From assembly GCA_946555345.1 (NCBI GenBank), contig CAMNSS010000002.1, positions 1 through 64,000 of the forward strand: 64,000 nt of DNA, read 5' to 3'. Source of the DNA: an uncultured Eubacterium sp. Its GTDB lineage: Bacteria > Bacillota > Clostridia > Peptostreptococcales > Anaerovoracaceae. The notes below the pieces were generated by a model. It saw only the letters and a list, made by a program, of their open reading frames with translations, made no database searches and had not been told where the DNA came from. Both the position numbers and the translations under genes were made by a program. Positions 20,609-63,911 of the stretch are shown here, one piece after another. The first letter of the stretch is position 1. Each line of letters starts with the position of its first letter.

Positions 20609-21247
20609 TTACATTCCTGGATTTTGGCCATACCCATCGATTTCCATGCTGTCAAACTCGCAATCCAATGATGCCAACGGCGGATCGCAATCCGATAAAA
20701 TCCCCGCTGATTCAAGCGCTTCACCCGTTCCGCTTTCTTCCTGCGCCCCATTTCGTTGATTTGATTCGCTTGGCCATTCATCTGATTCATGCGTTCCAAG
20801 CGCTTCACTTGCCCCGCCTGCTTCGCTTGACGCATTTGATTCAGCCGCCTGGTTTGATGCACATCTTCCACATCGCCCACAGATTGCACTTGCTTCACTT
20901 GGTTCATCCGTTCCATTTGATATAATGGATTCATCTGCGTCCCAAAAAGACACATCATCCGCCGGTAACGGTGAGTTTCCAGGGTCTTTTCGCCTACTCG
21001 TTCTCTTCGTCCGCCGCTTTTTCATCAGGTCAAAAATATGCCGCATCTCATTTTCATGCAAGGTAACGCCGCGCGACATCCGTTCATGATCCGGCGACCA
21101 ATCCCTGATATCGTATTTCGGCAAACCACCGTTCCAGCAGACAAGGTTCAGCTCCTTCCGCCAGCCGGTGGAATGAACCGTTATGACGCCTATTTCCTCC
21201 ACGATTTCAAAACGGATTTCCCTGTCAAAATCATTATTCATTGCCAT
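20609..21247 (-). CDS. YdbC/PC4-like ssDNA-binding protein with a long low-complexity tail
   Basis: Residues 1-75 match the YdbC family (PC4-like fold binding single-stranded DNA): FEIVEEIGVITVHSTGWRKE, WNGGLPKYDIRDWSPDHERM and a GVTLHENEM helix. Characterised YdbC is only about 75 residues. Here some 135 more follow: a basic KKRRTKRTSRRK link, then a Ser/Glu/Ala/Gly-rich acidic tail with loosely repeating ESNASSEAGG-type blocks and several cysteines. The frame is open upstream of 21247, but that ATG follows AAAGGAGATTAATT and matches the family start. The tail is inferred to be disordered. Confidence 0.82.
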   Translation of the reverse strand: MAMNNDFDREIRFEIVEEIGVITVHSTGWRKELNLVCWNGGLPKYDIRDWSPDHERMSRGVTLHENEMRHIFDLMKKRRTKRTSRRKDPGNSPLPADDVSFWDADESIISNGTDEPSEASAICGRCGRCASNQAAESNASSEAGGASEALGTHESDEWPSESNQRNGAQEESGTGEALESAGILSDCDPPLASLDCEFDSMEIDGYGQNPGM

Positions 21248-21620
21248 AATTAATCTCCTTTCGCTTGTTTGAATCAATACCTCTTTTATAAATGGTAAAC
21301 TCATTTTAGCGCATCAGGAAAATTTTGTCAACTATTTTATTCTATTTCTTCCATATTTTTCTTATTTTTATCTCCTGCTATTTGCCATTTCTATGAACCT
21401 GGGCTTTATTTTTAGGCGCAAAAGAAGGGAAAGCGTTCTGCCCCTAACCGTAACTCTCTCAAAAATACTTTTTTCAAAAAATCAAGAGCATCCATGCCGG
21501 AAAAGGAAAAATGATTTTCTCAGAGGAACAGGCGCAGCACATTATGCCCTGGCTAACGAATATAAAAGTTTCCTTGTCATAATCCACCCCTGCCCGCAAA
21601 GCAGATTTTGCAGGCATAAA

Positions 21621-21658
21621 AAAATCTCCATTGCATCATCTTGCAAAACAGAGATTTT
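21621..21658 (-). terminator. Rho-independent terminator downstream of the aminotransferase/GNAT remnant
   Basis: AAAATCTC (21621-21628) pairs with GAGATTTT (21651-21658); inside it TTGCA pairs with TGCAA. On the minus strand the stem runs into a continuous T-run (TTTTTTTATG), a good intrinsic terminator. The rest of 21248-21715 shows no gene. Confidence 0.7.
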
Positions 21659-21715
21659 CTTATTGCCCGCCGTTTATTCATTTAAGAGGGATTTCCGATA
21701 TTGCCTGCTGTCTGT

Positions 21716-21964: not shown

Positions 21965-22015
21965 ATTTTGCCTCGCAAGCGATTAAATTTGCCTCGCAAA
22001 CCCCGCCCCAAAGCT

Positions 22016-23251: not shown

Positions 23252-23375
23252 TTTACCCTACCTCGCTCATTAAAATCCCATCCATCATACCACGCTGCAA
23301 ATTTTATTACAAGTAATTAGCAGTATTAAATTCACTTTATATGTCGATACTAAACCCATGGGAGGTGAGACGTAC

Positions 23376-25023: not shown

Positions 25024-25959
25024 TCACGGCGCCACAAACTTTACATAATTGATATTCTTTCCCGCCGCTTTAAATTTTTCCTCATACTCCGTAGTGGTAA
25101 AACGGGATTCATAACCGCTCCCATGCAAATCCGCCGTCTGCTCCGTGATTTCATATCCAACTGCGGCGATTTCCGCAAGCGTGAACTGGTACAAATCCTC
25201 GTTATCGGTTTTAAACGCTACAAACCCGCCGCTTTTCAACGCCCATGCATAATCCTGCAAATGCTTCCTATAAGTAAGCCGCCGCTTTGCATGCCTTGCT
25301 TTCGGCCATGGATCGCTGAAATTGAGATAAATGCCGGAGAGCTGCCCTTCCGCAAAAAATTCTTCCATGCGATGCACGAAGACCAGCATAAATTTCAAGT
25401 TGGAAAGCTTTGCACCATTCGTCTTGCAAAGGCCCGCAGATTCCGCCTTGCAAAGATTTGCAGAACCTGCTTCGCAATCATTTGCTGAACCTGCCCTGCA
25501 AACGCCCGCCGTTTCCGCTCCAGGAAGCCCCGCTTCTTCCGCTCGTATATAATGTTTTACGCTATCTGCCCTGCAAGCGTCCGCAGAGCCTGCTTCGCAA
25601 TCATTTGCTTCTCCCGCCGTATAACGACCGACACCTTGCGCCCCGCAAAACGATCCTCCTGCTCCAAGGAGATTCGCTTTGCCGGCCTGTATGCCGGGAT
25701 CTTTTGCGCCAAGCTGTGCCGCTTTTTCCAGAGCCCGCAGGATTACCGTTTCCTGCCCTTCTATGGCGATAAAATTTTTGTCTGGATTATCCAGCGCTTT
25801 TTGGATAATAAAATTCCCTTTCCCGCACCCGATCTCAAGATAAAGCTCTTTATCATCGTTAAAAAAACTGCCCTTAGCATGATCTGCCGAGCAGTCGGTC
25901 AAATATCCACTGCAAGCCTGTAGCCGTTTTTCCAAATCCTTCGCTTTTCGTTGCCGCAT
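25024..25959 (-). CDS. trmB: tRNA (guanine-N7-)-methyltransferase with a large repeat insertion
   Basis: This SAM-dependent enzyme makes m7G46 in tRNA. Motifs are LYLEIGCGKGNFIIQKALDN (SAM site), the catalytic region YLNFSDPWPKARHAKRRL and the C-terminal SRFTTTEYEEKFKAAGK. The family is usually near 215 residues; this one is 311. The excess is an insertion at about 86-182, dominated by an octapeptide repeat of the form AGSANDCE. The reading frame extends 48 codons further up, but the ATG at 25959 follows GTGGAGGAACG and begins the family sequence. Confidence 0.92.
   Translation of the reverse strand: MRQRKAKDLEKRLQACSGYLTDCSADHAKGSFFNDDKELYLEIGCGKGNFIIQKALDNPDKNFIAIEGQETVILRALEKAAQLGAKDPGIQAGKANLLGAGGSFCGAQGVGRYTAGEANDCEAGSADACRADSVKHYIRAEEAGLPGAETAGVCRAGSANDCEAGSANLCKAESAGLCKTNGAKLSNLKFMLVFVHRMEEFFAEGQLSGIYLNFSDPWPKARHAKRRLTYRKHLQDYAWALKSGGFVAFKTDNEDLYQFTLAEIAAVGYEITEQTADLHGSGYESRFTTTEYEEKFKAAGKNINYVKFVAP
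25423..25617 (-). repeat. 24-bp (8-codon) degenerate tandem repeat inside trmB
   Basis: About eight units encode octapeptides such as AGEANDCE, AGSADACR, AETAGVCR, AGSANDCE, AGSANLCK and AESAGLCK. One unit is nine codons long, so all units stay in frame. Two 15-base blocks (TTCGCAATCATTTGC) are identical 123 bp apart. Nearly every unit ends in a cysteine plus a charged residue. Confidence 0.88.
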
Positions 25960-26998: not shown

Positions 26999-27421
26999 TC
27001 AATTTAATCCTTATCCTGTAAAGTTTTTTGCGCGCCAATTTATTTTACACGCTAATCTATCTTTTGCAAGCTTATTGCAGCTTATTTTTCTTCCTAATTC
27101 TTACGGCGGCCTGCACTCCAGACAGGCGCTGCCCATGCGCCTATAAATGGCAGGGTCTTAAGCAAACAGCGTTCCAAACTTCGATTCATTTACGGCAAAC
27201 TCCCATGGGGCGCTGCCCGTGCGCTGTTGGTTTTCCATTGATTTGCCGCCTGTTCGCGATTGGCCTCCCCATCATTTTTTGCCAAGCCCCGCCGCATACA
27301 GCACAGCGAGTAATTGCCGAAAGCGGATTGTTGCCTGCGGCCGGTTTGCGATTGGCTCCCTTTGCTTTTGCCAGTCGTCCTCCGCATACAGCACAGCAAA
27401 CCATTGCCTTCGGCTCGTTAT
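26999..27421. repeat. 423-bp spacer with a ~90-bp degenerate duplication between ecfA2 and ecfT
   Basis: The block running from GCGATTGG (27256) to CCGCATACAGCACAGC (27292-27307) recurs from 27348 to 27397, an offset of 90-92 bp. GGCGCTGCCCRTGCGC also occurs twice (near 27124 and 27206). No gene is supported. The insertion splits the usually compact ecf operon. Confidence 0.65.
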
Positions 27422-30693: not shown

Positions 30694-32370
30694 ATGAGAG
30701 CAATTCTTCCAATATTAGACGAAAACGGAAACCGTCCATACTATTTACAGCTCTACGATTATATCCGGGATGCGATTCTAGCAGGTGATATCATGGAAGG
30801 GGAAAAACTGCCATCCCTGCGCTCCCTTGCCAAATCAACGGGATTATCCATCACCACCATCAAGCAGGCATACGACCAGCTCCTGGTGGAAGGTTATGTA
30901 TACAGCAAAGCCCAGTCCGGGTACTATGCAGCCGAGGTCTTTTCCCATTCCCGAAAAACTGTATCCCCTGAAAAATCGATTTTCTCTCTACAAATGTTTT
31001 CCATGGAAAAGGAACTTTCGGCTGGGTGCGGGATGCTGAAATACGACCCAGCCTGTTTTGACTTCAACAAATGGAAAAAATGCATGAACAAGATCCTTAC
31101 CGAATACCCGTCCGCCCTCTTTTTTGAAAGCGACCCGCAAGGGGAAGCCGTGCTAAGGGCGCAGATCGCCAAATACCTGTATTTATCACGAGGTGTTTCC
31201 TGCCAGCCTTCGCAGATCATCATCGGCGCAGGAACACAGCAGATCACCAACCAGCTCGCTACCATCCTCCGGCGGCTTGGCATCGAGCATGTGGCGCTGG
31301 AAACGCCCGGTTACATTCCCGTAAAGAATATTTTCCGGGACAGAGGATTCGCCATCACCCCCGTCGGGCTTGACAAAGAAGGCCTGATGATCGAAAAACT
31401 GCCCGCCAACATCAGGACTGCCGCCTATGTCAGTCCGTCAAACCACGTATTGACCGGGGAAGTCATGCCCGTAGGCAAACGGTATGAGCTGCTCAACTGG
31501 GCGTCCCGCAACGACAGCTACATCATCGAAGACGACTATGACAGCGAGCTGCGCTATTTCGGAAGGCCAGTGCCTGCACTCAAAAGCCTGGAAAGCAATG
31601 ACAGGGTTATCTACCTGGGTTCTTTTTCCAGCACCCTTTTTACAGCAGTGAAAATCAGTTACATGGTTCTTCCGATTGAAATGGCAGAGCTGTTTTCTTC
31701 CATGGCGCAGGATTATACGCAGACTTGTTCCAAGCTGGAACAACTGACCCTTGCCATGTTCATGGAAACGGGAAACTACCAGACGCATATCAAGAAGCTA
31801 CGGAAGCTCTATGCGCAGAAGCTGGCGGCAGTTACTGATATTTTTGCTGCAAAGGCGGCAGGCTTCATCCGCATGCGCAACACGGCGTCGGGCATCAGCG
31901 TCATCTTGCAAATCATCGAAACCGGACACGGCAGCATAGCGGCGCTTGCGGAAAACAAACACGACGACGCAGCAACTTCCGCCAGGGATGCAGGCGGCGC
32001 AATGGCAAGCCCTACAAGCGCCGAAGACAGCGGCGGCGATGCCTGTGCCGCTGGCAACACCGCAAGCCGAATAAAGCCCGCACGCACGGCCGCAAGTCCC
32101 GAAAGCCAAGCAAGCCCCGCCCGTGCCGCCGACGCTCCCATGCAGGCAAAACCCGGCGGCAATCCAGCACAAGCGCCGCACGCCCCGGATCTTGTCCGCA
32201 AATTAAAACAGGAGGCCGACGCTGCCGGCCTCCCCGTTACCATACTGGATGAAGATCTCCTCATGTTTTATTACAATCACATCCCGCTATCGGAAATCTC
32301 ACCGCTATTATCATCGCTCATCGATTCCTGGGCAGCAATCGCAGCATCCTCCGCCTTACGCACCTCATAA
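30694..32370 (+). CDS. MocR-type (GntR + aminotransferase-like) transcriptional regulator lacking the PLP lysine
   Basis: A 558-residue regulator: winged helix at 1-80 (KLPSLRSLAKSTGLSITTIK), then a fold-type I aminotransferase-like domain (SPSNHVLTGEVMP, IIEDDYDSELRYFG). Where most MocR proteins have the cofactor lysine in GTFSK, this one reads GSFSS (Ser313, AGC at 31630). PLP could still bind non-covalently, or another ligand is sensed. Residues ~419-498 are an Ala/Ser/Pro/Gly-rich insertion that splits the C-terminal subdomain. The ATG follows TAGGAGTTCTGCC. The 3' end overlaps yfhO by 94 bp, tail to tail. Confidence 0.88.
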   Translation: MRAILPILDENGNRPYYLQLYDYIRDAILAGDIMEGEKLPSLRSLAKSTGLSITTIKQAYDQLLVEGYVYSKAQSGYYAAEVFSHSRKTVSPEKSIFSLQMFSMEKELSAGCGMLKYDPACFDFNKWKKCMNKILTEYPSALFFESDPQGEAVLRAQIAKYLYLSRGVSCQPSQIIIGAGTQQITNQLATILRRLGIEHVALETPGYIPVKNIFRDRGFAITPVGLDKEGLMIEKLPANIRTAAYVSPSNHVLTGEVMPVGKRYELLNWASRNDSYIIEDDYDSELRYFGRPVPALKSLESNDRVIYLGSFSSTLFTAVKISYMVLPIEMAELFSSMAQDYTQTCSKLEQLTLAMFMETGNYQTHIKKLRKLYAQKLAAVTDIFAAKAAGFIRMRNTASGISVILQIIETGHGSIAALAENKHDDAATSARDAGGAMASPTSAEDSGGDACAAGNTASRIKPARTAASPESQASPARAADAPMQAKPGGNPAQAPHAPDLVRKLKQEADAAGLPVTILDEDLLMFYYNHIPLSEISPLLSSLIDSWAAIAASSALRTS

Positions 32371-35354
32371 AGAAGCTTGCGGCGGTGTCTTTCGATCAAC
32401 TGGAATATAGCCAAAAGCACGATAGCGATCCCGCTTACCGCTGCCCCGGCCGCAATGCCAGGCGGCCTGAAATCCAGACGGATATGATGCTCGCCTGCTT
32501 TGAGCGGCACGGAAATCAGCACGCCGCCCGTAAGCTCATGGATCTTCTGCTCCGTGCCATCCACCGTAAGGCGCCAGCCTTCTTCATACGGCACTGACGT
32601 TACCAGGACCCCATCCTGCTCTGCCTCTACCATGCCTTCCAGGAAAGTATCGCCGCTCTTTGTCACCCGCATCAGGTTCTGCGAGAGAATGCCATACGCA
32701 CCGTCCCACGCCTCCTGCTCCAGATAGCACACATAGCCAGTTATCGTGCTGTCCTTGCCCTTTTCATAATCGATCGTGACCGTAAAGGATCTTCCTTCCT
32801 CTATGCTGCCGATATTTACGACAGAGCCGCAATCATTCCTAATCTCGATATCGTCGATCTTGTTGCCATTGCTGACATTGATGCGCTTTGCACTTGCCGT
32901 CTCAAAGAACACATAGTATTTCTGCGTTTTATCAGAGGTATATGTCAGTGTCACGCGCGCAGATTTATTGGAATCGCTGGACTTGACCGAAAACGTCCCG
33001 TCCGCTGTCATTTCCACCTTCGCATTTTTCGCGCTTATAGCCGGGGCTGCAACGCTATAAAACACCTTGCGGTACGTATTGGAGGTCGCCGCCCGCACAT
33101 AATCGTTCAGCACGTCAAACGGATTAACGCTTTCCGTATCCCACGTCCTGATCTCATTTCCCGCCATATACCCGATCGAAAGCGGGTATTTGCTTTCATA
33201 AAGCCTGGAATGCCCCGATTTTTCTACCTGCGTAAAATCAGGGTCTTTCACCTCCAAATTTTTGGCGATGATGTATTTCACATTGAGCATCGCATTCGTG
33301 ACCGGGCTGGTCTGGTTATAGTTAAAGCGGTTTCTGCCCGGAGAACCGTCCAGCCCTACTTTTTCCATCAGCCGCGTCATGTTGGCATTGATGGATGAGG
33401 AAAACTGCGACATCCCTTTATAATGGTACATGGCCGGATCGTTTAATGTATACAGCTCGTCCATTTCCGTCCGTGCAAATTCTTCGTTCGTTTCCTCTGC
33501 CAGCTTGCGGATATCCCGATTGTTTTCAAAATACGAAGTCCTGTACGTATTGCCGATCCTTTCAAATGATTCGCACGTATTCGCGCCCATTTCTGCCGCG
33601 ACCAGGACGACGACCAGAAGCAGGAAAGAACTTTTCATGATAATGCCTTTCCTATAAAGGATCAGAACGATACCATACAGAGCCAGCCACGCCACGCCGC
33701 CATAAAAGAACAGGTTCATGTCATCGACCTGCTCGTCCATCAGCTTCTGCGCCAGGAGATAATAGCCAATTCCCGCCGCTAGCACAGCCCACAGGTGCTT
33801 CACCCGGACGGTATCCATCCGCAGGAAAACCCGGTATGCCATCCCAATCAAAAGAAAACATATGGCGAAGGTATAGCGGTACGGCAGTTGGTTTGGGAAG
33901 TGAAACCCGTGCCAGATAAAGTCCAGCTTATTGATGTTAAGGCTGAGCAGCAAAAATGCCAGAAATCCCAGATTGAGCAGCTTTTCCCGCAGGGCGATGC
34001 TCTTATTGCATACATAAAGCACGGCCAGTATGACGGCCAGCATCCCGCAGTAAAGATTCGGCAAGCCCTCCCTGTAGGTCAGCTCCGCATATGGCAAAAG
34101 CTGGTTGAGAATATCCAGCACATCATTATAAAAGCTCCAGTCCGCTGGCATATCCGAGGAAAAATAGTAGGCATTGCGCATACTGATATAAGTTGGGAGC
34201 AACATCACCGCCCCCATCGCTACACCCAAAAACGAATACCCCGCCGCCTTTGCCGCCGTAACGAAGAAGACCCGCGCGCCGCCGTTTTTCACCTTCAAAA
34301 AATACAACACAGGGTAGTAGCAGAGGATGAAGATGCACACCATGATCGCCATGTAATAATTCGTAAACACCGTAAGCCCCAGCGCCACCGTGTACATGAC
34401 CGCCCTGCCGTCGCCGATGATACGGTTAAGCCCTAATATGCAAAGGGGCAGGAGCACGACAGCGTCGAGCCACATGATGCACCAGTAGTATGCCATGACG
34501 TAAGAACAGAGCGCATAGAGCGTTGCAAAAGCCACGATTCCCGCATCGCTGGCTTTTTTCTGTCCGCTGGCATTTTTCCGGCTGGCGCCACCAGCTTTTC
34601 GCTGGATGCCGCCGGCGCTTATTTTCCCTTGATTGAGGGCATTCCCTTGACCGTTAACGTTTCCTTGGTTTCCAATATTTACCTGACCGTTAAAATCCTC
34701 TCGGGCATCGCTTTTTTCCCGATTGCCAGCAGCTTCCTGGCCGCCAGGTTCTTCTCGCTTGCAGATTACCCCTTGGCCGCCATCATTCCCCACGCCGTCA
34801 AATCCTTCATAAGCATTGCAGTTTCCCCGATTTCCATCATCTTCCTGGCCTGCGTTTCCTTGATTACTGATTTCCCCTTGGCTGTTGGCAATTCCTTGGT
34901 TGTTGGCATCCTCTTGGGCACTGCCCTTTCGCTGGCTGTTGGCGTCCTCTTGGCCGCCGCCCCTTCGCTGGCTGCGCAGGAAGACGGCCATCGTGCTTGC
35001 CGCCAGCCCTATTTTAATTAGCAGGATGACGGTAACGCCCTCCATAATATATCGTTGCGGGAAGATTGCCAAAAGCAGGTTGAGCGGGCTTGCGCCATAG
35101 TAAGCAAGCAGTGTCCAGAAATTGCTGCCGCCCGCGCCATGCCAGGTATAAAAAAGGCTGCCGCCCTCTTGCAGCTTGTATTGCAGCTCGCTGAGAAACG
35201 GTACATACTGATGGTACATATCGATGACCGCAATTTGTTTTTCACCGAAAGGATACACGCCCGTTACCGCAAGCGCCAAAGCCACGATCGTTACCGCTAA
35301 GAAAAATGAGACCACGACGGATCTGCTATTTGTCAGAAACCCTTTGATTTTCAT
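32277..35354 (-). CDS. yfhO: YfhO-family membrane glycosyltransferase with a Gly/Asn/Gln repeat insertion
   Basis: This 1025-residue multi-pass protein of the YfhO family (GT-C-like fold) begins with a membrane segment, then QIAVIDMYHQYVPFLSELQY and FYTWHGAGGSNFW, the conserved acceptor-site region. In Bacillus subtilis YfhO works with CsbB to add GlcNAc to lipoteichoic acid; the CsbB/GtrB-like gene is immediately upstream here. Residues ~129-271 are an insertion of loose QGN/NQG/GQED repeats in the loop after the second or third membrane segment. It overlaps the glycosyltransferase stop by 29 bp and mocR by 94 bp. Confidence 0.9.
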   Translation of the reverse strand: MKIKGFLTNSRSVVVSFFLAVTIVALALAVTGVYPFGEKQIAVIDMYHQYVPFLSELQYKLQEGGSLFYTWHGAGGSNFWTLLAYYGASPLNLLLAIFPQRYIMEGVTVILLIKIGLAASTMAVFLRSQRRGGGQEDANSQRKGSAQEDANNQGIANSQGEISNQGNAGQEDDGNRGNCNAYEGFDGVGNDGGQGVICKREEPGGQEAAGNREKSDAREDFNGQVNIGNQGNVNGQGNALNQGKISAGGIQRKAGGASRKNASGQKKASDAGIVAFATLYALCSYVMAYYWCIMWLDAVVLLPLCILGLNRIIGDGRAVMYTVALGLTVFTNYYMAIMVCIFILCYYPVLYFLKVKNGGARVFFVTAAKAAGYSFLGVAMGAVMLLPTYISMRNAYYFSSDMPADWSFYNDVLDILNQLLPYAELTYREGLPNLYCGMLAVILAVLYVCNKSIALREKLLNLGFLAFLLLSLNINKLDFIWHGFHFPNQLPYRYTFAICFLLIGMAYRVFLRMDTVRVKHLWAVLAAGIGYYLLAQKLMDEQVDDMNLFFYGGVAWLALYGIVLILYRKGIIMKSSFLLLVVVLVAAEMGANTCESFERIGNTYRTSYFENNRDIRKLAEETNEEFARTEMDELYTLNDPAMYHYKGMSQFSSSINANMTRLMEKVGLDGSPGRNRFNYNQTSPVTNAMLNVKYIIAKNLEVKDPDFTQVEKSGHSRLYESKYPLSIGYMAGNEIRTWDTESVNPFDVLNDYVRAATSNTYRKVFYSVAAPAISAKNAKVEMTADGTFSVKSSDSNKSARVTLTYTSDKTQKYYVFFETASAKRINVSNGNKIDDIEIRNDCGSVVNIGSIEEGRSFTVTIDYEKGKDSTITGYVCYLEQEAWDGAYGILSQNLMRVTKSGDTFLEGMVEAEQDGVLVTSVPYEEGWRLTVDGTEQKIHELTGGVLISVPLKAGEHHIRLDFRPPGIAAGAAVSGIAIVLLAIFQLIERHRRKLLYEVRKAEDAAIAAQESMSDDNSGEISDSGM

Positions 35355-36408
35355 CTATGTTGCTTTCCTTTTCTATATAAATTGGCCTGTGTTTGGTTTC
35401 CATGTACATTCTGCCGATGTATTCGCCCATGATGCTCAAAACTGCTGTGATCAGTCCGCCAAAGAACAAAATCAGGCAGATGATCGACGCATAGCCGGGA
35501 ACGTCCTTGCCCAAAATCAACGTTTTGAGGATTTCGGCAATCAGGTATACGGCAGCGCCTACCGTGGTAATGCCGCCAAAGACGCCGATGGCTTTCAACG
35601 GGGAAGCGGCAAAATCAATAAAACCTGCGATAGCATACCGCAGAAGCCCCCAGACGGACCACTTGCTTTCTCCGCAAATGCGCCTGACGTTTTCAAATTC
35701 GATCCACCGGGTGTCGAATCCCACCCAGGCAAAAATGCCTTTGGAAAAACGCTGGCTTTCAGGCATACTGACGATGGCCTTCACCATCTTCTTGTTCATC
35801 AGGCGGAAGTCTACCGCCCCGTCGAGGATCTCGATATCGCTGTAACGGTTCATGATTTTGTAAAAAGCTCTTGCAAAGGCGCTCCGTATCCGCGGTTCGC
35901 CTTTGCGGCTCACCCGCCTTGCCGCACAGCTATCGCACCCCGTTTCTTCCATCGTGCGGATCATTTCACAAATGAGCTGCGGCGGATGCTGCAAATCCGC
36001 ATCCATGATAATGGCATAATCCGCCCCGCCCCGTTCCGCCGCCTTAAGCCCCGCATACATGGCTGCTTCTTTTCCGAAGTTGCGGCTAAAAGAGATGTAT
36101 TTGACCGAATCGCCATCTTTTACAAACCCAATCCCTTTATGGACCGCAGTCCCTGCATTCTCCCTGGCGCCATTCCTTTTCGTATGCTTCGCAAAGTTCT
36201 CGTTTGCGCCGCCCACCATTTCCTTAATCTTCTCCAGCGTGCTGTCCGTACTTCCATCATCCACGAAAATATAAGAAAACCGATAGCCATCTATTTCCGC
36301 TACCATGCGCTGAACCTCATCGAAAAAAAGATCGATGCTTTTTCCCTCGTTATAGCAAGGAACGATGATGTCCACCATTTTCAGTTGTCGGCGTTCCTCT
36401 TCCCTCAT
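35326..36408 (-). CDS. GtrB/CsbB-like polyprenyl-phosphate glycosyltransferase (family 2)
   Basis: This 360-residue protein has a cytosolic GT-A domain (VDIIVPCYNEGKSIDLF, VDDGSTDST, and the metal-binding IIMDADLQHPP) and two C-terminal membrane helices (LKAIGVFGGITTVGAAVYL; YASIICLILFFGGLITAVL). It probably loads a sugar onto undecaprenyl phosphate, which YfhO then uses outside the cell. A short Asn/Lys/Gly-rich stretch lies between the first motifs. The ATG at 36408 is preferred because AAAGGA is seven bases upstream; 36414 is also open. Confidence 0.9.
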   Translation of the reverse strand: MREEERRQLKMVDIIVPCYNEGKSIDLFFDEVQRMVAEIDGYRFSYIFVDDGSTDSTLEKIKEMVGGANENFAKHTKRNGARENAGTAVHKGIGFVKDGDSVKYISFSRNFGKEAAMYAGLKAAERGGADYAIIMDADLQHPPQLICEMIRTMEETGCDSCAARRVSRKGEPRIRSAFARAFYKIMNRYSDIEILDGAVDFRLMNKKMVKAIVSMPESQRFSKGIFAWVGFDTRWIEFENVRRICGESKWSVWGLLRYAIAGFIDFAASPLKAIGVFGGITTVGAAVYLIAEILKTLILGKDVPGYASIICLILFFGGLITAVLSIMGEYIGRMYMETKHRPIYIEKESNIDENQRVSDK

Positions 36409-38067: not shown

Positions 38068-38075
38068 GCTATCTT

Positions 38076-53741: not shown

Positions 53742-55718
53742 TTACAGGCTTATGACCCTAAAATCATTTTTCGCAAGCTGATCCCACGGATCGTCCACCC
53801 GCAATCCCTTTAAATTATTTTCTAATGCTCTGATGACCGTGCTATGCGTTACCAAAAGGATATCGCGCGACTGATCCTTCTGCAAAATTTCACGTAAAGC
53901 TTTCACCGCACGGTACTGCACGTCATAAAAGTTTTCCGCCCGGTTGCCGATTTTAAATGAAAAAATATCATCCCCCCTGCGTTCATAATCCAAAGGATAC
54001 TTTTTTTTGACCTCGCTGATTGGCATTCCGTCCCAGTTGCCTAAAGCGATTTCCTGCAAATCGGATACCTGTTGAAGCTCCCATTTGAAGCGGTTTTCTT
54101 TTTCCCCAGCGTTCAGCTCGTTCATCTGCTTTCCAGTATGCCGGTTTTCTTGCATATGCGCCTTTCTTTCTGCAAGGAGAATTTCTTCTGCCGCCGCTTT
54201 TTCCGCTATATTGCGGCCTTCTCCCCTGGCCCGCCACTGTCCCGCATCACAGCTTTCTTCCGCCTCTGCCCGCTTTCCAGTTCCCGCAAGCTCATTTGCC
54301 GCGCCTGCCTGCCCATTTGCTGCATTCACTCGCTTTCCGCCATCCACAGACCCATCTTCTGTGCCCGCAAACTCCTTGCCATCAGCCGCTTCCCGCATAA
54401 AAACATCCCGAATGATTTCCGCCGTCTGCTCCGCCCTTTTCAGCGGGCTCGTATAAATAATCCCGCTCCAGGAAACCAGGCTGCCGCCATATTTTTCTGG
54501 CCTCTGGCCGCTTGAACCGCTACAGCCCGAAACATTTCTGCCTCCTGCCGTTTCCATAAGATGCCCCGCAATCTCCTTCGCCATGGCTGCCACCTGCCCG
54601 TATGTACCCTCCTTTAACGGAACATCATACTGCCCGATAAACATTTTTTCCCTATGCTGTTTCGTCTGCCCATGGCGGATCAAAAAAATGCGCCTTCCAG
54701 CGGCTAGTTCCTGCAAGCTTTCCCGCCTGCCTCCCGTCTTTTGGAACGCCAGGATTTCTTCATATCCCTCTGGCGTATCCATGTCCAGGACACACCCCTC
54801 GTCCTCCACTGGAACACGCACCATCCTGTCCCAATGCCTGTCGGTAATCGCTTTTAGCCCGCCAGAACCATCATAACGGCATATTTCCCCGCTGTATACG
54901 GCGGGAATCAGCAAGGGGTGTCCTTTTTTTCCTTCAAAGACAGGCACATAAAAATTTTTTAATGTTTTCGCCCTGACAACGGAAGGCTCGAACGGTGCAA
55001 AGCTGGAGACTTCATCTGCAAACTCATGCAAAGCATCGTCCGCATCATTTTCACCTGCAAGCCCATGCACAATATCCTGCAAGCCCGTTACATCAAGTAT
55101 ATCAGAATCGTCATTCGCAGGCTTACCCGTTTCAGAACCCTCCAAAGGCTCGCACGATTCAACGTCCTTCAAGGACGCATATAATTCATCCGCCTCCGAA
55201 AGCCCACGCGATTCTGTGGATTCCGCTGTCTTATCCGTCTCACCGTTATTCAAAGTTCCGCACGATTCAATCCTTCCAGCGCCCCTGGACGCCGCCCCGC
55301 TGCCCTCCTCCACAGCAGCTTCCACCAGCCGCTTCAAAACCGCTTTACTGACAAGCGGGCAATCCACCGGAGCCAAAAGAAACCCCTGCGCCTGCCTGAA
55401 CGTGTCCTTTGCATATCCAATCCCTGCTTGGATAGATGAAAACATCCCCTCGGCATAATCCGCATTATAAACCTCGGCAACGCCTGCCTTTTCGATCACG
55501 GGCAGCAGCCTATCCCTGTTGTGTCCGCTCACCACTGCGATATCCACAATCCCAGCATCCCGGAAAGCGGCGATAAGCGTCTCAATGGCAGTACCGCTCC
55601 CCACCGGAAGCAACGGCTTAAACGCCTTCATCCGGGATGAATACCCGCCCGCCAAAATAACTGCACCGAATGAAACCGCATTCTTCATCCCCTGCACTTT
55701 CAATTTCACCGCCTTCAT
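53742..55718 (-). CDS. MobA/MocA-like NTP transferase fused to a histidine phosphatase, with repeat insertions
   Basis: A 658-residue fusion. Residues 1-340 form a nucleotidyltransferase like those charging molybdopterin with CMP or GMP (GAVILAGGYSSRMKAFKPLL, LLAPVDCPLVS). Residues ~355-658 form a histidine phosphatase (FLIRHGQTKQHREKMFIGQY, YTSPLKRAEQTAE, ILLVTHSTVIRAL). Both domains are interrupted: residues ~136-245 hold repeats (ESCGTLNNGETDKTA echoed by ESCEPLEGSETGKPA) and a second insertion of about 90 residues lies inside the phosphatase. It resembles the DVU_1551-type transferase and overlaps xdhC by four bases. Confidence 0.85.
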   Translation of the reverse strand: MKAVKLKVQGMKNAVSFGAVILAGGYSSRMKAFKPLLPVGSGTAIETLIAAFRDAGIVDIAVVSGHNRDRLLPVIEKAGVAEVYNADYAEGMFSSIQAGIGYAKDTFRQAQGFLLAPVDCPLVSKAVLKRLVEAAVEEGSGAASRGAGRIESCGTLNNGETDKTAESTESRGLSEADELYASLKDVESCEPLEGSETGKPANDDSDILDVTGLQDIVHGLAGENDADDALHEFADEVSSFAPFEPSVVRAKTLKNFYVPVFEGKKGHPLLIPAVYSGEICRYDGSGGLKAITDRHWDRMVRVPVEDEGCVLDMDTPEGYEEILAFQKTGGRRESLQELAAGRRIFLIRHGQTKQHREKMFIGQYDVPLKEGTYGQVAAMAKEIAGHLMETAGGRNVSGCSGSSGQRPEKYGGSLVSWSGIIYTSPLKRAEQTAEIIRDVFMREAADGKEFAGTEDGSVDGGKRVNAANGQAGAANELAGTGKRAEAEESCDAGQWRARGEGRNIAEKAAAEEILLAERKAHMQENRHTGKQMNELNAGEKENRFKWELQQVSDLQEIALGNWDGMPISEVKKKYPLDYERRGDDIFSFKIGNRAENFYDVQYRAVKALREILQKDQSRDILLVTHSTVIRALENNLKGLRVDDPWDQLAKNDFRVISL

Positions 55719-56870: not shown

Positions 56871-58388
56871 TCACCTTTCCCGCAAATAACCTTTTACCGC
56901 ATTTCTCGGCCTTACCTTATCCAGCCGCTTGAGCAGGCTGCCACAGGGACACTTTTCCGTGATCCATCTGCTGTAATCGCCAGTCCGGTAGCGGATAAAG
57001 GGCATTCCTTTTCTGGTAAGCGTCGTGAACACGATTTCCCCAAGCTGTCCATCCCTGACAGGAGCTTGCGTGCCAGGATCGATGATCTCGAGGTACAGAT
57101 CCGCCTCCCGCACATGATAACCAGCGCCATGTCCACAGCTTACGGCACAGCCCAGCCCCATCTCCGTCATTCCATAATGCTCATAAACCTTGCAAGAAAA
57201 AACCTGCTCGATAAACTGCACGTCTTTTTCATCCACATACTCTGCGCTTAGCAAAACGCATTTTAACCGCAAATGATTTGCAGGAAAAAAGGGATTGCCC
57301 GAAGCTTCCATGCCCTTCAAACGACCGCACACATATGCCTGTGCTTCCGCATCCGTGCAAGCGAGGCGATCCGCCACGCTTTTCCCTATTGCATAGCTGT
57401 CCGATTGCCCGCTGCTTTTGCATCCCGCAAGAACCGCCGGTTTTTCCTCCTGCCCAGATCCTGCGGGCTTACCCGCTTCCCTGCTAAAACGGTTGCAAAT
57501 TCCATATTGGAACGCTTCCCCGCCGAAACCGCCCTTCCTTTTCACGGCGGTCTCTGCCAGCATCCGCATATGCGTTGGCAACGCCACCACAGCCGTAACT
57601 TGTTCCGTTTCAATAAGATCAAGCAACCGCTCCGCCTCCCTGCGGATTTCCGCTTCCGCCATTCCCGGGCGCATCTGCGGCAATCCGTATTCTACCGTTT
57701 TTGCGCCAAAACCGCCTAACCCTCTCGCAAGCAATTTGCCGATAGATCCTGGGATTTTCACAGGCATCAAAATGAGGACCGTATCGCAAGCCGACACCAA
57801 AAGCTGCATTCCATTTTGAAAATAGTCCACCGTCAGTTGCTGGTCTTCCTCCGTAAAATGAACCCGCTTCGGCGTTCCTGTGCTTCCTCCCGTATCCAAG
57901 GTAACGATGCGGCTGATCTCTCCTGGCCTCACACAGAGAAAATCCATGCCAGATTCCCGCAGCTCCGCTTGTGTTGTAAAAGGCAGGCTTTGGAAAAAGC
58001 GCAAAAAATCCGCATCTCCCACAGGGCTGCTAATGCACCCGCTTCTATCTGGGCGCATAAACCCACAATTTCCATCTTTTTCAATCCCATCACCGTCAGC
58101 CAGCACGAACCCGCTACAGCTTGCCCGCATAATTCCGCTGTATTTCCGTTTGTAAAAGGGGCTGCGGTTGGCAGCGTAAATCAAAGTTTCCCGCAGTTTC
58201 CCCATCGTATACCCATCAAGGATCTGGCGGGTCATCCCATCCTGCGCTGCACCAATCTTTTTCGCAGTCCAGATATCCAGGCATCGGCGTTTCCCGTCAC
58301 TTATTTTGAGATTTATCTTATCCGCTGTCTTTGATGTACCCATTTTTTCAGCCGTTTCCGTATCGCTCAGACGCTTCCGCTTTCGCAC
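56871..58388 (-). CDS. PaaK-like AMP-dependent ligase of the molybdenum cluster (DVU_1553-like)
   Basis: A 505-residue adenylate-forming enzyme related to phenylacetate-CoA ligase. Motifs: VTLDTGGSTGTPKRVHFTEE (phosphate loop), YEHYGMTEMGLGCAVSC, GYHVREADLYLEIIDP and FIRYRTGDYSRWITEKCPCG. Its substrate is unknown; such genes accompany molybdenum hydroxylase maturation genes. Low-complexity insertions lie near 88-120 and 300-365. The start is uncertain: GTG at 58388 lies inside a ~41-bp repeat tract (58356-58450), and ATG at 58343 is an alternative; conserved sequence begins only near residue 36. Confidence 0.82.
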   Translation of the reverse strand: MRKRKRLSDTETAEKMGTSKTADKINLKISDGKRRCLDIWTAKKIGAAQDGMTRQILDGYTMGKLRETLIYAANRSPFYKRKYSGIMRASCSGFVLADGDGIEKDGNCGFMRPDRSGCISSPVGDADFLRFFQSLPFTTQAELRESGMDFLCVRPGEISRIVTLDTGGSTGTPKRVHFTEEDQQLTVDYFQNGMQLLVSACDTVLILMPVKIPGSIGKLLARGLGGFGAKTVEYGLPQMRPGMAEAEIRREAERLLDLIETEQVTAVVALPTHMRMLAETAVKRKGGFGGEAFQYGICNRFSREAGKPAGSGQEEKPAVLAGCKSSGQSDSYAIGKSVADRLACTDAEAQAYVCGRLKGMEASGNPFFPANHLRLKCVLLSAEYVDEKDVQFIEQVFSCKVYEHYGMTEMGLGCAVSCGHGAGYHVREADLYLEIIDPGTQAPVRDGQLGEIVFTTLTRKGMPFIRYRTGDYSRWITEKCPCGSLLKRLDKVRPRNAVKGYLRER

Positions 58389-58633: not shown

Positions 58634-59398
58634 CTATTCCGGTTTTTGCGCCACGAGGAGAAAATACCCGATTTTAGCATTTCCATCGCCGTCCTTATGC
58701 CCGCCAATTCGTCCGTTTCCATTCTCATTGCGTTTGCCGCCCTGTGCAAGCCCAGGCATCAAATCCTCCAGCTTGTCTCCGTCCATCAGCCGTTGCGCAA
58801 CATAATTATCCAAATCGGCAGACCTGTCCTCAAAGGCTACGATGCGATAGCCGATCTCTTCAAGCTGCGCTTTGAGCGGCTCTTCAAAGAACACCCCGTT
58901 TAAGCGAAAATCCACGAACCTTCCCGGATGCTCTTCACAATCGCCCTCCTTGCGCGGCTTCATCGCAAGGCGCGCCGCTTCTATCTTCACCGCCCGCATC
59001 TGTTTCGGGTCAGGGTCTTTATAATACAAATCGCTGAGAATCAGCTTTCCACCCTTCTTTAATACGCAATAGGCCTCATGAAGCGATTCGTCGGGAATAT
59101 TGATCAGGCTCAGCACGCATTCCATCATCACCGCATCAAACGTATAAGAGGAGTAATCGTCCAGAAACTCCCCGTCGCCGAATTTCACGCATACGCCCGG
59201 GTGTTTTTCCTTCGCCGCACTGACCATCGCCAGGTTCATGTCGATTCCTTCCGCATCCATGCCTTTTTCTTTGCAAAGGTGCGCCACTGCGTCGCCCTCG
59301 CCGCATCCGATATCCAGCACCTTCGCGCCCTTTTGCAGTTTTGCAAGCGCAAGCCCCCGGTCTGTTAATGCAAAGCTTCCCGGCCTCATAATCGTCAT
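58634..59398 (-). CDS. SAM-dependent methyltransferase of the molybdenum cluster (DVU_1556-like)
   Basis: This 254-residue class I methyltransferase has motif I in VLDIGCGEGDAVAHL, the acidic residue in AEGIDMNLAMV, and DAVMMECVLSLINIPDESLH, then GGKLILSDLYYKD. The conserved ECVLSL and the N-terminal RPGSFALTDRGLALA match the methyltransferases found with XdhC and the PaaK-like ligase in DVU_1551-1556 clusters. The substrate is unknown. A short Gly/Asn/Asp-rich insertion sits near the C-terminus. GGGAGGAATACAG precedes the ATG. Confidence 0.83.
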   Translation of the reverse strand: MTIMRPGSFALTDRGLALAKLQKGAKVLDIGCGEGDAVAHLCKEKGMDAEGIDMNLAMVSAAKEKHPGVCVKFGDGEFLDDYSSYTFDAVMMECVLSLINIPDESLHEAYCVLKKGGKLILSDLYYKDPDPKQMRAVKIEAARLAMKPRKEGDCEEHPGRFVDFRLNGVFFEEPLKAQLEEIGYRIVAFEDRSADLDNYVAQRLMDGDKLEDLMPGLAQGGKRNENGNGRIGGHKDGDGNAKIGYFLLVAQKPE

Positions 59399-59775: not shown

Positions 59776-61965
59776 TTACAACAATATCACTTCGCCGCTC
59801 CGCCCAGCATCATAGCCGCCGAGCTGCGCCAGCCTGTCGTGAAATTCTGCGCTTTGCAAAATCTGCAAAAATGCTTTGATGTGCGGAAGCTCCAAAAATT
59901 TGGCCGGGATTGCGAAATCGTATTCCTCCGGCGCAATTTCGATGAAATCCAGCCCCATCGCCTTAGCGGCTGAAAGCACGCCCATGCCCGCATCTGCACC
60001 GTCTCCTGCAACCGCTGCCGCAACCGCCATATGCGTTGCCATTTCCCGCTCGTATCCGTTGATTTCCGCCGGGTCAATTCCCGCCTGTTTCAGCTTGTAA
60101 TCAAAGAGCACCCTCGTGCCTGCGCCCCGCTGCCTGTTGACGTAACGAACCGGGACCGCATTTCCGCCAGCCGTTCCCATGCGGCCAGCTCTTTTTCCTT
60201 CTGCGTATTCGCCAGCCGCCGCCTTGCCATCTATTTTTTTGCCAGCCGCTCTTACGCCGCCAACATTCGCTCCTGCGTTGCCAGCATCCGCTCTTTCTGC
60301 GCCGCCAGCCATTTCTTTTGCATCCACCCTTACATCGCTGGCCGTTCCTGCATTTCCGGCGCTCATCCCTGCATCGCCAGCCGCCGCACCACTAGCTGAA
60401 TCTCCGCAATCCGCCTCTTTCCCAGCTATCTCCATTCCGCTGCGCAAATCCGCAAGCCCTTCGATCCGCAACGGATTGTCCTTTTTCACCATGATTCCCT
60501 GAATCCTGTGGACGCCCTTAATCAGCGCCATCGGCTCGCGGAACATTTTTTTCAGATAAGAAATATTATACTCGCCGCTTTCCTCGTCCAGCAAATGGAT
60601 CGGCGCGATATGCGCTTCTCCCCGGCGCAACGCCATCAGCCCGCCCATGCTGCCCACGTGCGTGCTGGAAACGAACATATCCTTATATGCGTTCGGCATG
60701 ATATCGGCGATGACGTCCAGGATCAAATCGTGGCTTCCGATCACCACCACGGTATTTTCAATTTCCCGCCTGCTCCTGTAAAGCGCAATCTCCGCCACAT
60801 CCCCCGCTTCGATGCCTTCACTGTTCTGCTCGATGATGCAAAACCCGTCTGCCCGCACGAGCGACATCGCTGCGCCTGCGCCCCTTGCCAGCGGCGCTGC
60901 GACGAATTTATCACCCACCTTGCCTACCTTGACACGCACGTATTCCTTGTGCTTCAGGCTCGACACCAGCCGCCTGGAAATGTGCGCCTGCACCGTTTCC
61001 GCAAGGCGTTCCGGCCGCCTTGCCATCATCTGGATGAGCGGTGTGACGAAATTTTCAAATCCGATATAAGCGGACACGGGATAACCTGGAAGCCCAATAA
61101 CTGGTTTTCCCGCTACCACCGCCAGAATCACCGGCTTTCCCGGTTTGACGGAAACGCCATGGACGATCACCTCGCCCAGCTCGCGAAGCACGTGAACGGT
61201 ATAGTCCTCCGTCCCTGCGCTTGAACCTGCATTGATGATCACCATGTCATAACGGCCAGCCGCCTGCGCCACCGCACCCCTGATCTTTGCATAATCATCG
61301 GCGATCGGCGCAAACCTATGCCCGATGCCGCCCGCCACCGTAACCATATTTTCAAACATCCGGGAATTGGATTCTATGATGCTGCCATCCTCCGGCTCTT
61401 CCTCCGGCTCGATGATTTCCGTGCCAGTCGGGAAAATCGCAACCTCCGGCCGCTTCACCGCTTCGATTTCCAAAATACCCGCAGACAAAAGCACCCCGAT
61501 GTCGATCGCCCGGATCTTGTGGTTGCCCGGCAAAATCATTTCCCCCGCGACGATATCCTCTCCGATCGGGCGGATGTGCTGCCAAGGATGCGCCGATGCG
61601 ATAATCCGCACCCCGTCTTCCGTCTCCACGATGTCCTCCGCCATAATCACCGCATCAAAAGGCGGATGAATCGGATCGCCCGTGTCCACCACCACATAAT
61701 CCGTTTCCTTTAAAACGACCGGGGACGTCTCGCTGGCATACGCCGTATCCGCCGCCCGCACCGCAATGCCGTCCATCGCAGAAGCATTATAAAGCGGCGA
61801 GCTGTATTTGGCGTAAATCGCGCTGCCCGTTATCCGGTCAAGGCTTTCCGTCACCTTGATCGTCTCGTGTTTCACCGTAATCAGATCTGCGATGGCAGAG
61901 AAATACTTTTCCCGCGCTTCCTCCACCGGGATCGTCTTTAAATATAAATTTCTTTTTCGTTGCAT
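59776..61965 (-). CDS. MoeA-type molybdopterin protein fused to a periplasmic-binding-like domain
   Basis: A 729-residue protein. Residues 1-400 are MoeA, which inserts molybdate into adenylylated molybdopterin (SPLYNASAMDGIAVRAADTA, IINAGSSAGTEDYT, VIGLPGYPVSAYIGFENFV). Residues ~410-729 form a substrate-binding-protein-like domain (VVIGSHDLILDVIADIM, YVNRQRGAGTRVLFDYKL, LDFIEIAPEEYDFAIP), a known fusion of about 640 residues that may sense or hold a ligand. An 85-residue Ala/Gly/Asp-rich repeat insertion (~521-605) splits the second domain just before YVNRQRGAGTR. Ribosome site AGAGGAAAATAGA. Confidence 0.9.
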   Translation of the reverse strand: MQRKRNLYLKTIPVEEAREKYFSAIADLITVKHETIKVTESLDRITGSAIYAKYSSPLYNASAMDGIAVRAADTAYASETSPVVLKETDYVVVDTGDPIHPPFDAVIMAEDIVETEDGVRIIASAHPWQHIRPIGEDIVAGEMILPGNHKIRAIDIGVLLSAGILEIEAVKRPEVAIFPTGTEIIEPEEEPEDGSIIESNSRMFENMVTVAGGIGHRFAPIADDYAKIRGAVAQAAGRYDMVIINAGSSAGTEDYTVHVLRELGEVIVHGVSVKPGKPVILAVVAGKPVIGLPGYPVSAYIGFENFVTPLIQMMARRPERLAETVQAHISRRLVSSLKHKEYVRVKVGKVGDKFVAAPLARGAGAAMSLVRADGFCIIEQNSEGIEAGDVAEIALYRSRREIENTVVVIGSHDLILDVIADIMPNAYKDMFVSSTHVGSMGGLMALRRGEAHIAPIHLLDEESGEYNISYLKKMFREPMALIKGVHRIQGIMVKKDNPLRIEGLADLRSGMEIAGKEADCGDSASGAAAGDAGMSAGNAGTASDVRVDAKEMAGGAERADAGNAGANVGGVRAAGKKIDGKAAAGEYAEGKRAGRMGTAGGNAVPVRYVNRQRGAGTRVLFDYKLKQAGIDPAEINGYEREMATHMAVAAAVAGDGADAGMGVLSAAKAMGLDFIEIAPEEYDFAIPAKFLELPHIKAFLQILQSAEFHDRLAQLGGYDAGRSGEVILL

Positions 61966-62357
61966 ATTCTATTTTCCTCTTCTTCCCATATTTTTACGTC
62001 TTTCCGCTTGTTTGCTTCTTCGTTATTTCGTCTATACAGGCTTTCGTGCGGCAGGCTTGCGATTTTAGGCGGTTTTTGCAGGTCCTTTGCGTTTTTTGGG
62101 AACGGTTTTTGGGCGGTTTTGCAGTTTTTTTGCGATTATTTTACAGTCTTTCAGGGTTCACTTCCTGCAAAGGCCACGTTCTCGCTTTCCTGCAAAAGCT
62201 GCGTTCACGCTTTTTTGCAAACGGCAGATCTGTTGTAATCTAATGTTTTCTATAGAGGCGCACCCGTGCCGATATCGCCCGCATATGGCTTCTATGATTC
62301 CGCCCGTGCAAAATCGCTATACAGCGGGCAGTCGTTTCCGCCCGTGCCAAAAGGCGT
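61966..62357. repeat. 392-bp spacer with short degenerate repeats between the two moeA genes
   Basis: TTCCTGCAAAGGCCACGTTC and TTCCTGCAAAAGCTGCGTTC lie about 28 bp apart near 62165-62212, followed by a third form (TTTTTTGCAAACGGCAG). GGCGGTTTTTGCAG/GGCGGTTTTGCAG also repeats near 62070 and 62112. CCCGTGC words recur at 62265-62350. No gene is supported. Confidence 0.6.
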
Positions 62358-63911
62358 TTAAAACAGCGTCACCAAAACCTGCTGCCCTGCTGCCAGCCCT
62401 TCTGCATCCATGTCGATCAATACATAGCCATCCGCCCTAGTCAGCGTGGTCATAAGGCCGGATTTGCCAAAGATCGGAACAGCCTGGTAAACACAAGGCA
62501 GATCGCCTCGGGATGCTGCGCCGTTTTGCAAATCTGCCGCGCGCTGATTTGATGCATTCCGGGACGCTACGCCACAAATGCCCGTACTATCTTTGGACGG
62601 CAAAGCGTTTGGAACGGCTGTATGATTATGCAACGCCACCACACCCTGAGTTTCCAAAACATTTTCAACGGCTGCACCGTGCAAAGCCCCCACTCTCTGG
62701 TTTGCCGAAGCATTTTGGAAACCCGCAACGCCCTGAACCGCTGGTGTGTTTGGAACGGCTGTATGATTGCGGGCTTCCAAGGCATTGCAAACAGACGCAT
62801 GATCCGCACAATCCCGCTTCCCGCACTGCTGAAGTTCAACCAAAAGACACGTTGTCTTGCCTCCGGCCGCCGCCACATTTTCCGTAATCTGCGCAGGAAC
62901 TGCCATAGGCTCGCCCTGCCCCGTCAGCTTTCGGAAAAGCCAGCCAATGACCAGCTCGAAAACCAAAAGCGCCGCCGCAGGATGCCCCGGAAGCCCCGCC
63001 AGAATCGTCTCCGTTTTCTCATCATATCCCAGGATTGTCGGTTTGCCTGGCTTTAATGCGATACCGTGCGTCAAGACGCCTGGCTCTGCCAGCTTGTCCA
63101 TCACATCCGCTGTATAATCCTTTTCCCCTTGGGAACTTCCACCGGATAGCACAACTAAATCACTGTCTGCCATCGCCTCGCGGACAGCCGATTCGATCAA
63201 GGAAGCATCGTCCCGCAAAACCTTCGTGCGAATTACCGCAAACCCTTGCCGCATCGCTGCCGCAGAAAGGGCATATGTGTTGATATCCCTGACCTGCCCG
63301 CTGGCTGGAACGGTCTGTGCATCTACCAGCTCATCGCCCGTGGAAACCACCGTGACCCGCCAAGGTTTAAAAACGAGCGGCTGGTGAACGCCCGCTGACG
63401 CCAAAACGCCGATTTCCCGCGGGCTTAACTTTCGCCCTTGCGGAAGGAACACCTGCCCAGCCGTAATATCTTCTCCTGCTATAATGATATTCCGCCCGGC
63501 GGATACCGGTTCATACACAGCGATGCTGCGTTCATCGAATTTCTCGCAATACTCCACCATCACCATCGCATCAGCGCCCTCCGGGATCATCCCGCCTGTC
63601 GGCACATACACCGCTTGGCCAGGCTTTATGGATTTTTGCGGGGCTGTCCCCATCGCGACTTCTTCTACCACGTCAAGAAATACGGGGATGCTATCGGTAA
63701 CGCCCTGCGTATCGGACGCCCTGACCGCATAACCGTCTACCGTAGATTTGCAAAAGCCAGGGATGTTTTCAGTTGACTGTAAATCCTCCGCCAGCACGCA
63801 TCCCAGGCTTTGCAAAAAATCTATCCTTTCCCGTTTGGCAAAGTTCTGCGGCACTGCTGCCAGCAGCTTTTCCCTTGCTTCCCCTAACGTATCAACTTTT
63901 AGTAATTTCAT
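62358..63911 (-). CDS. moeA: Molybdopterin molybdenumtransferase MoeA with a C-terminal repeat insertion
   Basis: A 517-residue MoeA; about 400 is usual. Motifs: VDGYAVRASDTQGVTDSIPV, GGMIPEGADAMVMVEY, LVVLSGGSSQGEKDYTADVM and AGLPGHPAAALLVFELVIGW. The C-terminal domain is interrupted at about 362-472 by a repeat region in which NHTAVPN occurs twice (RNHTAVPNTP, HNHTAVPNAL) with variants of QGVAGFQNAS. The domain then resumes at VPIFGKSGLMTTLTRADGYV. Ribosome site GAGGCAGGAT. It is the first gene of the cluster inside the window; nothing is seen in 63912-64000. Confidence 0.92.
   Translation of the reverse strand: MKLLKVDTLGEAREKLLAAVPQNFAKRERIDFLQSLGCVLAEDLQSTENIPGFCKSTVDGYAVRASDTQGVTDSIPVFLDVVEEVAMGTAPQKSIKPGQAVYVPTGGMIPEGADAMVMVEYCEKFDERSIAVYEPVSAGRNIIIAGEDITAGQVFLPQGRKLSPREIGVLASAGVHQPLVFKPWRVTVVSTGDELVDAQTVPASGQVRDINTYALSAAAMRQGFAVIRTKVLRDDASLIESAVREAMADSDLVVLSGGSSQGEKDYTADVMDKLAEPGVLTHGIALKPGKPTILGYDEKTETILAGLPGHPAAALLVFELVIGWLFRKLTGQGEPMAVPAQITENVAAAGGKTTCLLVELQQCGKRDCADHASVCNALEARNHTAVPNTPAVQGVAGFQNASANQRVGALHGAAVENVLETQGVVALHNHTAVPNALPSKDSTGICGVASRNASNQRAADLQNGAASRGDLPCVYQAVPIFGKSGLMTTLTRADGYVLIDMDAEGLAAGQQVLVTLF

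Follow-up and report, generated by a model that had tools for sequence, protein, structure and literature searches.

Why do so many unrelated conserved proteins, encoded close together in one bacterial genome, contain stretches that their relatives lack? The question arises from 64,000 bp of DNA of an uncultured Eubacterium sp., hereafter called the window (contig C2, bases 1–64000, of a 2.845 Mb assembly in 36 contigs). A first-pass annotation of this DNA named ten proteins with in-frame, repetitive insertions. It proposed that protein loops were expanding across the genome. We compared the window, and a 692-kb sample of the genome, with other members of the genus, each species being represented by one genome. 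Our best reading is broader: DNA gain wherever it is tolerated, rather than in protein loops alone. We put the probability at a little under 0.6 that DNA has been gained on balance in this lineage specifically, with short tandem duplication as at least one of the routes and with reading frame and tolerance as filters within genes.

Results

Window proteins were aligned with orthologues from syntenic stretches of congeners G026, G033 and G034, with shorter pieces from further relatives. The number of aligned relatives was 26 for YfhO, 25 for the MocR-like regulator, 16 for TrmB, 13 for the YdbC-like protein, 8 for ApbE and 6 for a fused ABC ATPase. The NTP-transferase/phosphatase, PaaK-like ligase, MoeA-PBP fusion and MoeA were each compared with G026 only. 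All ten proteins contain extra in-frame residues, as the annotation had stated (Table 1). Eight have interior inserts, several of them two or three. The other two are elongated at one end, the C terminus in the YdbC-like protein and the N terminus in ApbE. Smaller inserts in a GT2 glycosyltransferase and a methyltransferase add to the earlier list. At the YfhO site the linkers of the relatives are short, reaching about 30 residues at most. None of the aligned congeners shares an insert by descent. Pfam matches of the ten proteins include no intein or Hint family; the PC4 match of the YdbC-like protein falls slightly below the Pfam cut-off.

For gene tallies, interior inserts of at least 20 residues were counted. 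Such inserts occur in none of the 25 window genes below position 18000 and in 11 of the 32 above it. One of the eleven (18441–20105) is probably an artefact, because its insert is based on a short G033 frame and vanishes against G027 and G034. With this gene dropped, the difference is 10/32 versus 0/25 (p = 0.0016). The six rnf genes, named like rpsC and rplP from gene order and length only, align with their orthologues without inserts.

Inserts are spread across the sampled genome. They were found in 11 of 57 window genes (10 without the probable artefact) and 10 of 117 genes sampled elsewhere. Hence, the window is not significantly enriched (10/57 versus 10/117, p = 0.13). Among orthologue pairs, genes with inserts in our genome and in the relative numbered 10 and 1 for G026 (59 pairs), 13 and 2 for G033 (126 pairs, the doubtful gene included) and 8 and 2 for G034 (76 pairs). 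Control comparisons between relatives gave 1 and 1 (37 pairs), 0 and 1 (32 pairs) and 2 and 2 (51 pairs). In the pooled comparison 18 of 184 genes have an insert in our genome, and the relative has one for 5. The expansion is thus lineage-specific within the genus and, as first supposed, extends well beyond single genes. In congener G048 the TrmB loop has an insert of its own, about 60 residues long, and 3 of 41 genes have inserts; this is at most a mild form. An assembly artefact seems unlikely, because the stretches are degenerate and keep frame.

Expansion is even clearer between genes than in proteins. We compared spacers between adjacent orthologue pairs where both spacers were at most 900 bp; some of our spacers enter more than one comparison. 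Mean lengths were 129.5 versus 40.4 bp for G033 (78 pairs), 144.3 versus 40.7 bp for G026 (38 pairs) and 129.3 versus 45.3 bp for G034 (51 pairs). Where lengths differed by more than 100 bp, our spacer was the longer in 26 cases and the relative's in 1 for G033, with 12 and 1 for both G026 and G034. Equivalent controls among relatives gave 3:0 (G033 longer than G034), 0:2 (G033 longer than G026) and 0:0. Medians were closer (18.5 versus 15.5 bp for G033, 36 versus 8.5 for G026, 18 versus 18 for G034), because tight operon spacers stay short. Among spacers of at least 80 bp, 18 of 46 were repetitive beyond 20 shuffles, compared with 1/18, 0/8 and 0/10 in three relatives. With an alternative shuffle type the counts were 20/46 and 5, 1 and 0. 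Since spacers are expanded too, what is seen in protein loops would seem to be the coding share of a general DNA gain, the portion that gets through the reading-frame filter. The proposed loop expansion is therefore genome-wide, as suggested, but not loop-specific. Similarly, the annotation's statement that ribosomal and rnf genes are spared holds for the proteins. It does not hold for one ribosomal-operon spacer (10384–10557), which has expanded and contains a 50-bp tandem repeat; most other short spacers in that operon equal those of relatives in length. Separately, a 985-bp spacer (24039–25023) seems to hold another local repeat, with several TTTCACCGTTTTGC-like motif copies in either orientation.

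The sequence of the inserts was examined in a hand-picked set of 24, of which 17 are from the window and 7 from elsewhere. The set excludes 18441–20105, 41412–43052 (insert near the N terminus) and rows L045, L046:7966, L121:16601 and L121:6321. Twelve inserts were more repetitive than all 60 codon shuffles; for instance, no shuffle reached the score of the YdbC-like extension. Repeat units of 24, 30 and 48 bp match the 8, 10 and 16 codons reported earlier, and units of 12, 18, 21, 36 and 45 bp also occur. The remaining twelve were not detectably repetitive: MocR (score matched by 16/60 shuffles), GT2, NTP2, NTP3, both PaaK spans, the methyltransferase, MoeP and 4 of the 7 from elsewhere. Hence, the description "imperfect short repeats" fits half of the set.

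Across 1,868 insert codons there is no stop. Shuffles preserving codon position contain 48.7 ± 5.6 and mononucleotide shuffles 80.4 ± 8.3. The best repeat offset was a multiple of three in 12/12 repetitive inserts versus 5/18 repetitive spacers (Fisher p = 9e-5), a contrast that is suggestive only. For all inserts the figure was 21/24 (codon shuffles, 360/480). Together with the lack of in-frame stops, this agrees with the earlier opinion that slippage in phase-variable genes is a poor parallel. Tandem arrays in the window were sorted by hand from 20 rows. Six intergenic arrays have periods of 50, 37, 37, 17, 25 and 10 bp, none a multiple of three. Ten coding arrays with scores of at least 46 have periods of 24, 24, 18, 36, 45, 18, 48, 30, 21 and 12 bp, all multiples of three. 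Four rows (periods 12, 12, 13 and 41) were set aside because they lay at gene edges, scored 40–41 or straddled a start. When all arrays of the sample were taken at score 40, the period was divisible by three in 28/38 inside validated genes and 33/92 outside. The corresponding shares vary among relatives (15/16 and 19/30 in G033; 5/11 and 12/24 in G026).

Mismatches between repeat copies were spread evenly over the three codon positions (0.261, 0.314 and 0.284; about 695 sites each). The codons of insert-bearing genes, compared with G033, gave 0.233, 0.146 and 0.600. With the open frame, this indicates that frame is kept and residues are not. One alternative is that the inserts are selected disordered regions that aid regulation, crowding or condensates. 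In its favour, hydrophobicity is lowest in the frame in use (16.5%; the other five frames 19–34%; codon-position-preserving shuffles 18.5 ± 0.3%). Set against this are the even mismatches, the absence of a sequence common to the inserts and the similar growth of spacers. We consider such adaptation very unlikely. Rather than functional modules, these stretches are probably disordered filler.

TrmB was modelled with AlphaFold2 from four sequences. Overall confidence was low, with a mean predicted local distance difference test score (pLDDT) of 53.4. A low-scoring stretch (residues 133–231) coincides with the insert, and blocks spanning 141–230 scored 22–28. Flanking ten-residue blocks (81–130 and 231–359) scored 55–89, and residues 1–79 were also mostly low. 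The TrmB insert is thus predicted to be disordered. The loop is a permissive insertion site: elsewhere in the family, in other genera, TIGR00091 matches break at this position or close to it, and the inserts of the aligned examples are dissimilar. The TrmB loop inserts of G167 and G100 (L143 and L146) resemble each other, which suggests that one or more other genera have an insert at this site that was passed on by descent.

Could the inserts be decayed mobile elements that entered genes in frame, like the palindromic elements of Rickettsia? In-frame insertion across unrelated genes would fit, as would the presence of a dispersed palindromic family between genes. Nevertheless, the 24 inserts gave 8 weak non-self matches in the 692 kb sample and their codon shuffles gave 5. 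Moreover, no insert had inverted repeats beyond all 40 shuffles; the lowest were TrmB (2/40) and the first ABC insert (3/40). Of 15 regions with dispersed repeat families, the 14 listed all lie outside validated genes. The annotation had already argued against one mobile element and against the Rickettsia parallel, and both arguments stand. Among the explanations weighed here we rate this one lowest. Inserts were also compared with the remainder of their host gene, as a possible source of copies. NTP2 and L044b scored above each of 20 shuffles, and 1/20 shuffles reached the scores of ABCc, both PaaK spans, the methyltransferase and L044a. Hence, nearby coding DNA may have contributed to some extent.

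The palindromic family itself is an often tandem, intergenic repeat with a unit of about 67–91 bp (TGAACGCTTCC..GCGTTCATTATA). Exact pattern matches numbered 21 in our genome, 2 in G015, 2 in G026, 1 in G027 and 0 in the other 45 searched. The L057 copy had no match in Rfam.

Loss of a repair function (mismatch repair, RecJ, ExoVII, SbcCD or the Pol I flap nuclease) could drive repeat growth. MutS (above cut-off), RecJ, XseA and the Pol I 5'-nuclease domain were all found, and the Asp-rich motifs of the latter appear unaltered by eye. SbcD had no match in our genome. It was similarly unmatched in G033, G008, G037 and G017 (5 of the 17 genomes searched); since G033 has few repeats, loss of SbcD alone is insufficient. 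The SbcD match in G034 is weak only, and distribution within the genus is patchy. A MutL-like protein (L121, 4405–6324) contains a repetitive 45-residue linker insert, which also speaks for this explanation. Its 639-residue frame adjoins MutS and is open throughout; it was named by eye, with no family scan. A strong mutator signal was not seen. Unique amino-acid changes in our lineage and in G033 numbered 727 and 592 with G034 as outgroup (+23%), and 709 and 656 with G026 (+8%). We rejected a mutator reading on this slight substitution excess. At otherwise invariant columns of Pol I, 31 changes are unique to our genome and 4 to G033, an unfair comparison because G008 is close to G033 and lowers the G033 count. 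We think lost repair improbable, if marginally less so than adaptive inserts.

Relaxed selection alone offers another account. Here, a small effective population would keep ordinary insertions, with no rise in duplication rate. The somewhat greater number of unique changes than in G033 fits, as do inserts without residue-level constraint. However, the substitution excess is small. Furthermore, part of one source describes deletion bias as usual in bacterial genomes (PMC5447742). Drift combined with such bias should shrink spacers, yet they grow. In passages of a study of wild-type Escherichia coli lines, large structural variants show an insertion bias and small indels a deletion bias (PMC10292909). 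Few tandem duplications are described there, and one passage makes a comparison with earlier work on insertions mediated by insertion sequences (PMC10292909). Relaxed selection by itself seems unlikely to us, though it deserves more weight than adaptation, mobile elements or lost repair.

Several observations count against net gain by tandem duplication. No repeats are detectable in 28 of the 46 spacers or in half of the 24 inserts, whether they have faded or never existed; hence, some may have another origin. Codon-shuffled inserts mostly give a best offset divisible by three, so this property is partly built in by codon structure and the contrast between inserts and spacers can only be suggestive. 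Strong self-repeats occur in 6.9% of our open reading frames compared with 7.8% in G026 and 7.0% in G034; the hits listed for these two relatives include, read by eye, apparent repeat-domain and Glu/Ala-rich proteins. Outside validated genes, score-40 arrays number 24.5 per 100 kb in our genome and 24.4 in G026. Only 7 exact tandem duplications of at least 11 bp were found in our 692 kb (relatives: G048, 1 in 143 kb; G033, 2 in 468 kb; G026, 0 in 244 kb; G034, 1 in 180 kb). The process is therefore slow or past, or perfect copies were lost in assembly; one contig terminates inside a near-perfect array. Finally, no causal gene was found among the repair candidates examined. At score 50, array density per 100 kb was 25.0 in the window, 12.6 and 9.1 in our samples, and 0.7, 7.5, 9.3 and 9.1 in G033, G034, G026 and G048. 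Crude repeat scores separate genomes poorly, and our case is built on orthologue comparison, not on repeat density.

Table 1. Positions of inserts, spacers and repeats (window coordinates unless a locus is named; aa, amino acids).
Feature	Position	Strand	Evidence or comparison
YdbC-like C-terminal extension	20612..20959	-	231 aa vs 91-141 aa in four relatives
TrmB, 98-aa insert, 24-bp repeat units	25417..25710	-	alignment; TIGR00091 match split at insert
MocR-like regulator, 94-aa insert	31915..32196	+	lacking in 25 aligned relatives
YfhO, insert of about 140 aa between two conserved parts, 36-bp repeat units	34551..34970	-	alignment
GT2 glycosyltransferase, 35-aa insert	36112..36216	-	orthologue alignment
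ApbE N-terminal extension, 45-bp repeats	37756..38055	-	alignment, repeat scan
Fused ABC ATPase, third insert	39149..39304	-	orthologue alignment
Fused ABC ATPase, second insert, 48-bp repeats	39422..39676	-	alignment, repeat scan
Fused ABC ATPase, first insert, 30-bp repeats, separating two ATPase halves	39875..40180	-	alignment
NTP-transferase/phosphatase, 107-aa insert, phosphatase half	54069..54389	-	vs G026 only; His_Phos_1 match in two stretches
NTP-transferase/phosphatase, 34-aa insert	54459..54560	-	vs G026 only
NTP-transferase/phosphatase, 118-aa insert, NTP-transferase half, repetitive	54957..55310	-	vs G026 only
PaaK-like ligase, adjoining inserts (aa 280-331 and 342-373) as one span	57270..57551	-	vs G026 only
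PaaK-like ligase, 35-aa insert	58029..58133	-	vs G026 only
SAM methyltransferase, 18-aa insert	58673..58726	-	vs G026 only
MoeA-PBP fusion, 98-aa insert within PBP-like domain	60151..60444	-	vs G026 only; PBP_like match in two stretches
MoeA, 100-aa insert, repetitive	62487..62786	-	vs G026 only; MoeA_C match begins at profile position 29
Ribosomal-operon spacer, 3.1 copies of 50-bp repeat	10384..10557	.	174 bp vs 22, 23 bp (G033, G034)
Expanded spacer	16657..17022	.	366 bp vs 33, 28 bp
Expanded spacer, 37-bp repeat	17998..18440	.	443 bp vs 40, -4 bp
Expanded spacer	26999..27421	.	423 bp vs 6, -4, 24 bp
Expanded spacer	40985..41411	.	427 bp vs 26, 9 bp
Spacer, 3.4 copies of 37-bp repeat	45361..45771	.	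411 bp vs 239 bp (G026)
Expanded spacer, 25-bp repeat	61966..62357	.	392 bp vs 13 bp (G026)
Dispersed palindromic repeat copies	L057 14266-14547; L129 15400-15630; L172 4550-4881		intergenic

An open frame of 241 aa (38933–39658, + strand) lies antisense to the ABC ATPase inserts. It is probably a by-product of stop-poor repeats.

Discussion

We propose that, since its split from congeners, this lineage would have gained DNA at many dispensable sites. Short segments of about 12–90 bp would be duplicated in tandem, the copies would drift by point mutation and later duplications would build on them. Between genes, gains of any length could be retained. Within genes, they would survive only as stop-free whole codons in tolerant loops, linkers and termini. 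Tight operon spacers, and the ribosomal and rnf proteins, would remain clean. Tandem duplication may then account for most of the gained DNA, and behind it would lie more frequent duplication or less efficient removal, rather than drift alone. A more specific version is tentative, and we would sooner bet against it than for it. In that version, insertions would have come to outweigh deletions in the mutation spectrum, and both the spacers and the loops of about one conserved protein in ten would be inflated by short tandem duplications.

No such genome was reported in the literature covered, at the level of titles and abstract openings and with most subscription papers outside it. The Ehrlichia ruminantium genome is described as having long intergenic regions, and tandem repeats that expand and contract. 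Enlarged intergenic regions with tandem repeats are likewise found here. In contrast, our repeats are degenerate, in-frame swelling extends to conserved enzymes, and no other of the 49 assemblies searched in the genus is as long (several of the others being incomplete), where the E. ruminantium genome is contracted. That process is the nearest known. Rickettsia palindromic elements, as part of one account describes, place in-frame extra peptides in unrelated metabolic genes (PMC10969869). Our inserts also lie in frame within unrelated genes, but those tested have neither a common sequence family nor palindromes. Proteins of the malaria parasite Plasmodium falciparum have low-complexity inserts in the loops of conserved enzymes, under low constraint and rich in homopolymer runs. 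Ours differ in their mixed composition and imperfect multi-codon units, and are not homopolymer-rich. Contingency repeats of phase-variable bacterial genes are simple tandem repeats in coding DNA. Unlike these, the units here span 12–48 bp in whole codons and lie in housekeeping genes, and no frame switching was seen.

Bacteria are generally held to shed superfluous DNA by deletion bias, and this lineage would be doing the reverse. A relative with 80% median protein identity and few repeats would allow the control of gain and loss to be mapped. If insertions do prevail over deletions, the lineage would be a bacterial counterpart of the malaria parasites, whose proteins are insert-laden, and new disordered protein segments would arise in it naturally. 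More generally, the genome would illustrate a route by which disordered insertions enter working enzymes: near-neutral gain of DNA, filtered by frame and place.

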